64,000 nucleotides of DNA from Nitrospira sp. ND1. Its GTDB lineage: Bacteria; Nitrospirota; Nitrospiria; Nitrospirales; Nitrospiraceae. Below, piece after piece: positions 32,846 through 35,230 of this stretch. Location: assembly GCF_900170025.1 (NCBI RefSeq), contig NZ_FWEX01000005.1, positions 481,073-545,072 of the forward strand. The letters run 5' to 3'. Numbering within the stretch: the stretch's first letter is position 1; each line of letters opens with the position of its first letter. The translations under genes were made by a program, and so were the position numbers. The notes beneath the pieces are model-generated. The model worked only from the letters and a program-made list of their open reading frames with translations. It was not told the origin of the DNA and did no database searches.

Positions 32846-32847
32846 GT

Positions 32848-32971
32848 CAGGCTGCTGAAAAAGCCCGTCACCTGCGTTCTCAGCTCGACAAAATCCTCAA
32901 CGTAGCCAGAGGCTACGCCTCCGGTTTTCTCTCGCCTGCGGCCTTGTTGGACGGACTTTTTGAGCAGTCTG
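32848..32971 (-). repeat. Inverted-repeat element, copy 4 (reverse orientation)
   Basis: 124 bp. The left end CAGGCTGCTGAAAAAGCCCGTC pairs with the reverse complement of the right end (CAGACTGCTCAAAAAGTCCGTC), three mismatches in 22. The TGCGGCCTTG box is near the right end, so the element is inverted relative to copies 1-3. It starts 2 bp after the Memo-like stop and could act as its terminator. Confidence 0.85.
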
Positions 32972-33059
32972 CGCCGGAAGTCACGCCGTCATCCTAGGTA
33001 CGCCTCGCTCCTTCGCTAGCTGCGGCCTAGCGGGACAATCGTTTTGACCGTTCTGCGGG

Positions 33060-33229
33060 CAGGCTGCTGAAAAATCCCCCTACCTTCGCTCTCGGCTCAC
33101 CAAAATCCTCAACGTACCCCCATGGGAAAAGAGCCTGTCCCGGCAGGCGAAGGGTGGGCGGGTAAGAATGTCACGCCTCCGGTTTTGCCTTACTTGCGGC
33201 CTCGGTAGACGGCTTTGTTGAGCAGCCTG
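33060..33229 (-). repeat. Inverted-repeat element, copy 5 (reverse orientation)
   Basis: 170 bp between CAGGCTGCTGAAAAA and TTGTTGAGCAGCCTG. It contains AAAATCCTCAACGTA, as copy 4 does. The 22 bp after both copies are identical (GCGCCGGAAGTCACGCCGTC...), so copies 4 and 5 look like a duplicated block. Confidence 0.82.
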
Positions 33230-33352
33230 CGCCGGAAGTCACGCCGTCATTCTCGAATCGCCTCGCTCCATGAATGGAGCCCGAAGCTACGCTTCAGTCT
33301 TCCTGCCTCGACGAGTCACGTTTTACGTCTGATGTTTGACGACACTCGGCTG

Positions 33353-33557
33353 CAGGCTGTTCAGAAAGGCCGTCCAGCAAGGCCGCAGGAAGCACGGCGA
33401 CTGAGGAGGTACATACCAAACTTCGTTTGACCCGTTCGCCGTGACAGATACTCTTGGCGAACGGATATACTCCACCAGTAGTCCCGTTTTATCTCCCATA
33501 CGTCGCAGGGAGACGTGCGACCGAGAACGCCGCTGGGCGGTCTTTCTGAGCAGCCTG
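33353..33557 (+). repeat. Inverted-repeat element, copy 6 (long form)
   Basis: 205 bp. CAGGCTGTTCAGAAAGGCCG pairs with CGGTCTTTCTGAGCAGCCTG (two mismatches). The inner hairpin CCGTTCGCC (33432-33440) / GGCGAACGG (33455-33463) is the counterpart of that in copy 2 with one compensating base-pair change. It is directly followed by a different palindromic element at 33558. Confidence 0.87.
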
Positions 33558-33754
33558 CTAGCCCGCATGATTCATGACGGTTCGTCGCGAAATTGCGGAG
33601 TCACAAAGCGAGACGGACGCGCGGAGCCGTGAGGGAGGAAGGCATCCTTGAACAGGATGTCGACCGACCGAGCGGCGAGCCCGCCCGCCGACAGGCTAGT
33701 CGCAGCTGCGAATCCGCGATTGCAGCAGAAGCGCTCATGAATCATGCGGGCTAG
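33558..33754. repeat. Second inverted-repeat element with perfect 20-bp ends
   Basis: 197-bp unit with ends CTAGCCCGCATGATTCATGA (33558-33577) and its exact reverse complement (33735-33754). There is no coding capacity and no similarity to the eight-copy family. Its outer CTAG supplies the stop codon of the lipoprotein gene on the minus strand. MITE-like by structure. Confidence 0.82.
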
Positions 33755-34143
33755 TAAGCGGGCATGCCGCCGGCCGGATCGGTATATCTGGTGGGTGTGG
33801 TGAAGCGATCCCAGGTGGTGACGACGCCTTCCTCGAAGTACACACGAAACGCGCTGGTCACGCAGGCATCCCGGCCGATGGGCGGGTAGAGCCAGACTGT
33901 GACCATCCGGCCTTCGTCCTCCACGTCTTTTTTACACACCGGCGACCCGCGCGCGAGATAGACCTGATCCTGGTTCATGCCGCGCAGGATCTTCCCGCGA
34001 TCGATGGCCCAGCGCATGCCTTCAGGATAGGACGGATAGTGGTCGGTCATCAGTCGATGACGTTCCGTGTCGCATCCGGACAGCGCTACGGCCAGCAGGA
34101 GAATGCTGTTGCGAAGGATCGCACGCAACGGAGACATCAGCAT
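33751..34143 (-). CDS. BamE/SmpA-like outer membrane lipoprotein
   Basis: 130 aa with a lipoprotein signal (ILLLAVALSGC, Cys near residue 24). The mature part has the BamE-type pattern ILRGMNQDQVYLARGSP followed by VTVWLYPP. BamE supports the BAM complex, but other small lipoproteins share this fold, so the role is open. The stop codon lies inside the terminal repeat of the 33558 element, so the original C-terminus may have been changed. Confidence 0.72.
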   Translation of the reverse strand: MLMSPLRAILRNSILLLAVALSGCDTERHRLMTDHYPSYPEGMRWAIDRGKILRGMNQDQVYLARGSPVCKKDVEDEGRMVTVWLYPPIGRDACVTSAFRVYFEEGVVTTWDRFTTPTRYTDPAGGMPAY

Positions 34144-34824: not shown

Positions 34825-35039
34825 GGGACCAAATCTAACAGGGCGGGGATTCCAACGGCAAGAGGGGCGGATCCCGCATGCACCGGACGGCGAGTCACGA
34901 ACCACAACCTCCGTTTTGACAGGCGTGATTTCTCACAGTGAACGGCGTATTCTCTGCCGAAACCATCGAGCCGCCGATGACCGGGCTTAGCGGAGGGTTA
35001 CGCCCAATGGAAACACAGGCGGGAACTCACCTGCACCCG

Positions 35040-35230
35040 CAGGCTGCTCAACAAAGCCGTCCAGCAAGGCTGCAGCGTGAGACCAGGGACACTACAATTG
35101 TTCGCAGGCTGTTCAGAACGGCTGTCCGGCAAGGCCGCAGGAAGCACGGCGACTGAGGCGTACCCTTGCGGTACGTCGCAGGGAGACGTGCGACCGGGAA
35201 CGCCGCCGGCAGTCTTTATCGACAGCATGC
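35040..35230 (+). repeat. Inverted-repeat element, copy 7, with a second nested left end
   Basis: A left end CAGGCTGCTCAACAAAGCC at 35040 is followed 65 bp later by a second left end CAGGCTGTTCAGAACGGC at 35105. A GTACCCTTGCGGTAC hairpin and the right end near 35230 follow. One copy appears to have inserted into, or recombined with, another. The element ends 12 bp before the MBL hydrolase start. The 200 bp to its left hold nothing else I can support. Confidence 0.78.

Follow-up and report, generated by a model that had tools for sequence, protein, structure and literature searches.

The window, a 64,000-nucleotide stretch of Nitrospira sp. ND1 DNA, contains a 197-bp span whose first 20 bases, CTAGCCCGCATGATTCATGA (33558-33577, plus strand), recur as an exact inverse at 33735-33754. 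At up to three mismatches the 20-mer has no further match in the window, and none of 100 shuffles gave any, so the pair is not due to chance. The original prediction of perfect 20-bp terminal repeats holds for the inversion and not for the length, because each 20-mer comprises a 16-bp repeat and a 4-bp target duplication of the YTAR class (Table 1). Inverted symmetry continues beyond the ends into the body of the element. No gene is evident inside, as had been predicted, when ORFs of at least 60 aa are examined; a 63-aa ORF (plus strand) and an 81-aa ORF (minus strand) extend only into its left part. The first three bases of the right CTAG read TAG on the minus strand and are the stop codon of an ORF at 33751-34143 (minus strand). 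The stop codon had been foreseen correctly, and the BamE-like label attached to the ORF was not borne out (no Pfam family at E ≤ 1e-3).

Table 1. Features of the 197-bp span, in window coordinates.
Feature	Position	Strand	Basis
Target-site duplication, left copy, CTAG (YTAR class)	33558..33561		Sequence, variant duplications elsewhere, single YTAR in relatives
Left terminal inverted repeat CCCGCATGATTCATGA, 16 bp	33562..33577	+	Sequence; IS1380 elements with comparable ends
MITE proper, 189 bp, imperfect palindrome throughout, no gene of its own	33562..33750		Folding, 37-copy alignment, pair counts
Right terminal inverted repeat, 16 bp, perfect	33735..33750	-	Sequence
Target-site duplication, right copy, CTAG	33751..33754		Sequence; 13 of 15 element-free loci keep one YTAR

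On its left the element begins directly after the end, at 33557, of a different repeat (copy 6 of the original prediction), so the abutment that had been described is exact to the base. This is accounted for by the habits of the neighbouring repeat, since repeats of the copy-6 type already end at this YTAR in the MITE-free loci L178, L180, L192 and L194. The second family, found in the window at 32847-33557 and 35039-35209, has the form CAGGCTGNTNANAAA ... CAGCCTG, is often about 124 or 205 bp long and, in several loci of Nitrospira, terminates at a stop codon. When its flanks were screened with a crude pattern for a 4-bp duplication, none of 16 pairs matched.

Assignment of the outer bases to the target rests on 29 end pairs in loci fetched from the window's genome. 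The flanking tetranucleotides are identical in 18 pairs, reading CTAG in 15 and CTAA, TTAG and TTAA in one each. The 11 remaining pairs comprise eight with a single-base difference, a spurious pair (L135:1738), a misregistered one (L163) and one with flanks CTCA/CCGA (L174) that does not fit a target duplication. Because the outer tetranucleotides match as direct repeats, they represent a target-site duplication and not part of the terminal repeat, leaving an element proper of 189 bp. The predominance of CTAG is to be read with the sampling in mind: loci L001-L117 were chosen by the exact CTAG-bearing 20-mer, which over-represents it, and the pattern applied to the window's genome also contains CTAG.

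Relatives preserve uninterrupted versions of these sites. With the adjoining ORF as query, 27 of 29 genomes of the genus gave a match, and among the 20 returned loci that were compared the element is present in five (the window's genome, G020, G010, G013 and G011). In 13 of the 15 loci that lack it, a single YTAR stands directly before the end of the ORF; the remaining two, L181 (TCAG) and L188, have no YTAR at that position. The stop codon was therefore not supplied by the element, and these relatives indicate that it lay within a YTAR before insertion. At the CTAA copy, genome G012 (L289) reads GGGGCAA-CTAA-GACTGC where the occupied site reads GGGGCAA-[CTAA...CTAA]-GACCGC; it is the only one of five relatives of about 93% identity or more with CTAA there, the others showing ATAA, CCAA, CCAA and a diverged left flank. 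At the TTAG copy, the uninterrupted alleles are GACTC-CTAG-GGGCGG in G028 (L263) and CTC-TTAG in L272. Allele comparison at three loci thus supports the view that the element entered a YTAR already present and duplicated it. The TTAG locus (L260-L287) also looks like an insertion hot spot: one YTAR at the end of an ORF holds different insertions in different species, among them A-type MITE ends (L285), B-type ends (L279, L287) and the copy-6 repeat (for example L273, L274 and L278).

Copies are numerous. The further copies that had been expected are found as 72 end matches at up to three mismatches in the window's own genome, where BLAST gives 27 matches, the query included, with 14 other near-full-length copies at 77-95% identity. 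The exact 20-mer occurs in at least 117 stretches of the genome_contigs collection, and pattern counts place the ends in 25 of the 29 genomes of the genus, most abundantly in G028 (117), G002 (72) and G000 (59). This abundance, together with the difference from the adjoining copy-6 repeat, bears out the proposal of a second mobile family. A tree of 37 copies, built without the partial copy of G020 and with named members mostly from Nitrospira, resolves two subfamilies at support 100/99: the window copy and those of G010 and G013 fall in A1, and that of G011 in A2. Seven of the 29 end pairs in the window's genome (for example L138:1344-1516 and L140:1505-1677) belong to a sister subfamily of 173-bp MITEs, whose ends read CCCGGACTATTCATGA / CCCGGATTATTCATGA. 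Six copies at contig ends, on contigs that match the positions of G002 hits, are identical where comparable save for one base in one copy; the near-identity of these G002-type copies suggests recent spread there. Plasmid, phage and viral collections gave no match, either by blastn or, in one search, by the exact 20-mer only. Matches confined to the ends also occur in metagenome-assembled genomes (MAGs) titled as other phyla; L006, L017, L042, L070 (an Acidobacteriota MAG), L084 and L108 (a Planctomycetota MAG) match over only 17-18 end bases. Such matches suggest either further MITE families of IS1380 type in those organisms or misbinning.

The search for a mobilising enzyme covered PF13701 (IS1380 transposase, DDE_Tnp_1_4) in 198 genomes of the phylum, of which 54 matched and 30 loci were returned. 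An end within two mismatches of YTARCCCGSATNATTCAYGA accompanies eight of these 30. At L198 both ends are exact around a PF13701 element spanning 1681 bp, and within the genus L227 (G002) is a 1711-bp element flanked by TTAG/TTAG that encodes a 470-aa transposase (PF13701 E 2.3e-126). L228 (G014) and L234 (G002) are IS1380 elements of the same genus with CTAG/CTAG flanks. A full-length transposon sharing the ends, for which a check had been suggested, is thereby found. At L199, L212 and L237 (the last in G002) the flanking tetranucleotides are unequal, which is evidence against interpreting these three elements in a simple way. When 27 PF13701 transposases, drawn from 37 loci matching the L227 protein (at least 300 aa, E < 1e-3), are placed in a tree, all nine with these ends fall in one clade at 100/100, and three of the nine belong to a congener in which MITE ends are abundant. 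The tree program flagged long branches, including at the point where the L227 group attaches, and the ten loci dropped include L205, L212, L219 and L229, which have such ends too. Within PF13701, the DDE family scanned for these ends, the end-flanked transposases thus form one group. PF13701 also stands beside an exact end in G221 and G216 (titled Myxococcota), which were reached through end loci not named as Nitrospira; among the 11 genomes behind such loci, nine gave no PF13701 match.

Partnership between element and transposase is confined to the ends. Against eight IS1380 elements, the body of the MITE gives matches below E 0.01 only to an end of L198, and against 13 further IS1380 loci it gives matches below E 0.1 only to ends and to one neighbouring MITE copy. 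Since no homology to the compared elements can be detected in the interior, that interior does not resemble a deletion derivative, and descent from a particular insertion sequence is not supported. The window's genome yields no intact PF13701 transposase, only one match below the family cut-off, and no end pair at up to two mismatches and 1.4-2.0 kb spacing in 400 kb of its other DNA. Transposase sequence adjoins such ends in G002 and G028, in the latter as an open frame of only 287 aa with an exact end nearby. In light of the missing intact transposase and the 77-95% identity of its 14 other near-full-length copies to this one, the most plausible status for the window copy is that of a relic, and the copies of this genome look like relics in general.

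These observations define the locus. Short, multicopy and non-coding, with inverted ends held in common with autonomous IS1380 loci and a target-site duplication documented by identical flanks and uninterrupted sites, 33562-33750 is a MITE, a non-autonomous transposon whose ends are those of one IS1380-family clade. Mobilisation in trans by an IS1380-family (PF13701 DDE) transposase is very probable on the sequence comparisons above.

The perfect ends had been taken to imply a recent origin, a view contradicted by similar copies, 90-98% identical, at the same site and in the same orientation in three other species. Element identity at this site is 95% in G013, 90% in G010, 98% over 99 bp in G020, where the copy lies at a contig start, and 78% in G011; the corresponding values for the adjoining ORF are 79%, 81%, 87% and 78%. 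Compensatory change keeps the two arms complementary, and perfect ends therefore give no date. The A1 copies may have been inherited together at this site; the element is more alike than the ORF, perhaps through exchange between copies. In the fourth species (G011), the same site, in the same orientation, is taken by a member of subfamily A2; with A1 and A2 at one site, the position was probably struck at least twice, or one copy was replaced. In keeping with joint inheritance of the A1 copies, G013 and G010 have the copy-6 repeat next to the element in its long form, though G008 (L196) has the long form without the MITE.

Folding of the element gives one long imperfect hairpin (z -5.3 as DNA, -8.7 as RNA). 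In a 37-copy alignment (36 distinct), pairing is found in 95.9% of cells and falls to 28-45% when partners are slid by one to three columns. Changes on both sides occur at 18 of 51 pairs, with 130 double-change cells vs a shuffled mean of 47, all scored on a structure derived from the same alignment. The tally of additional pair types stands out less (56 vs a shuffled 51.4; 10 of 500 shuffles reach 56). The consensus structure leaves seven columns unpaired inside each terminal repeat. Much of the covariation falls between the subfamilies, with double changes within them at eight pairs in A1 and ten in A2. Such constraint could act on RNA or on single-stranded DNA, or could arise from correction between the arms.

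Most insertions fall in the gaps between predicted genes or coincide exactly with a stop codon. Among 28 reconstructed sites in the window's genome (the spurious L135:1738 removed, the misregistered L163 retained), 12 are at a stop codon, 11 intergenic and five inside predicted genes. Background sites in 464 kb, a set that may include MITE copies, number 35, 135 and 81 in the same classes for CTAG and 89, 470 and 447 for all YTAR. Other loci named as Nitrospirota, a set that includes L103, titled Nitrosospira, give 12 at stop codons, 35 intergenic and seven inside genes, and the remaining 24 copies give four, 16 and four; ten of the 88 copies at other loci were excluded for short flanks. Restricted to non-genic sites, Fisher tests of the stop-codon excess against CTAG give p = 0.003 for the window's genome, 0.55 for other Nitrospirota-named loci and 0.03 pooled, and against all YTAR 1e-4, 0.10 and 4e-4, in a comparison devised after the data had been seen and with gene calls from a home-made hexamer score. 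The excess is thus unproven. Gene-internal insertions show a deficit in the other loci (p = 0.0045) that is not significant in the window's genome (p = 0.14). CTAG targeting, together with the removal of deleterious insertions, may account for most of the stop-codon excess.

Other classes of repeat can resemble an element of this kind. In a REPIN, two inverted REPs are moved by a RAYT (Y1/HuH) transposase and not by a DDE enzyme; by inspection a single end here can form a small hairpin alone, and at locus L033, the case that prompted the idea, a RAYT-like ORF lies between end sequences with a Y1_Tnp score of 22.7 bits, just below the cut-off of 23. No linked RAYT flanked by the same REP is found in the window's genome, where the sole Y1_Tnp match, in a 3.3-kb locus, has no such end at up to five mismatches. 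The 4-bp target duplication also argues against a REPIN, as HuH enzymes of IS200/IS605 type are not known to produce one, and the same ends recur on IS1380 elements. A REPIN is accordingly very unlikely, and the idea was dropped on these three grounds. The Y1_Tnp match itself (L176, C5:725832-726155) has its own inverted repeat on both sides, ggggtcaggtcttgcaat / attgcaagacctgacccc, unrelated to the MITE. At L021:586-1951, an IS110-type transposase ORF lies between the ends of a 1366-bp MITE-like pair; IS110 was considered and rejected, the pair being tentatively read as an IS110 insertion into a MITE copy.

Elements of the IS630/Tc1-mariner type duplicate TA, and as TA lies within CTAG, the commonest target, the sequence could be read as a TA-flanked MITE that prefers CTAG. 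If TA were the duplication, the bases on the inner side of each TA would be part of the element and would be expected to vary independently of the target; the flanks observed instead agree as direct repeats (CTAA/CTAA, TTAG/TTAG, TTAA/TTAA), and the partners found are IS1380, the family that was searched, which together make this reading extremely improbable. Just as improbable is a conserved structured RNA or terminator locus that is not mobile. Strong folding, compensatory changes and the position of many copies exactly at stop codons speak for it; against it stand copies at unrelated sites, target duplications and uninterrupted alleles in relatives. Rfam has no match in the element, its one hit (E 0.98) lying outside and below the gathering score, and promoter and terminator prediction gave nothing at the element, the sole terminator-like site falling outside. 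The uninterrupted sites refute structured RNA as the sole explanation and are compatible with it as a secondary role, added after insertion of the MITE.

The MITE reading finds parallels in known systems. Its terminal repeats and YTAR duplication match those of one IS1380 clade in the same phylum, from whose members it differs in lacking a transposase and in an interior without recognisable similarity to the elements compared. In PMC3281130, IS1247 of the IS1380 family is tabulated with 5-bp repeats. Bacterial MITEs described in PMC4133298 and PMC11578231 include the Tn3-derived TIMEs and MITEPye1, which has IS1182-like ends and is preferentially intergenic. According to those papers, they resemble the present element in being short and non-coding, with ends common to an autonomous element, direct repeats and predicted RNA hairpins; TIMEs are usually single-copy and MITEPye1 has one to three copies per chromosome, whereas the Nitrospira element has tens. 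The transposase family and target differ as well, and compensatory changes in the stem have been counted for the Nitrospira element. The eukaryotic piggyBac superfamily, for which IS1380 serves as prokaryotic outgroup, makes a 4-bp duplication of TTAA, with rare variants including CTAA and TTAG, and has 5' end motifs that mostly begin CCC (PMC10813416). On the account of this one paper, piggyBac appears similar to the Nitrospira element in its 4-bp duplication and 5' end motifs, and differs in being eukaryotic and in a target that is nearly always TTAA, compared with mostly CTAG here. A limited body of open-licence literature yielded neither an IS1380-derived MITE nor a Nitrospira MITE of the 189-bp type, an absence that is unproven. 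The element is of an ordinary kind: an IS1380-associated MITE family of Nitrospira with YTAR duplication and a conserved hairpin.

As a mechanism, we infer that the transposase would recognise the 16-bp ends common to the MITE and IS1380 elements, cut YTAR with a 4-nt stagger and insert the element there. Since the duplicated CTAG or other YTAR holds TAG or TAA, an insertion at a stop codon would restore the stop and leave the gene intact. In the window's genome the relic hairpin would then survive as a 3'-flanking structure of the adjoining ORF; its relic status and any effect on the neighbouring transcript are likewise what we infer. An extension by analogy, speculative and on balance improbable, is that the IS1380 clade specific for YTAR represents piggyBac's counterpart in bacteria, spreading portable 3'-end hairpins that might insert seamlessly at stops, their target containing TAG or TAA and being duplicated, and be kept as 3' untranslated regions.

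A widespread repeat of Nitrospira, a genus of nitrifying bacteria, is hereby explained, with its likely transposase and target identified, and natural pairs of uninterrupted and occupied sites are now available. The combination of a stop-preserving target with a conserved hairpin offers a testable case in which transposon debris may become the 3' end of a transcript, and the 4-bp target makes it worthwhile to compare the mechanism directly with that of piggyBac.
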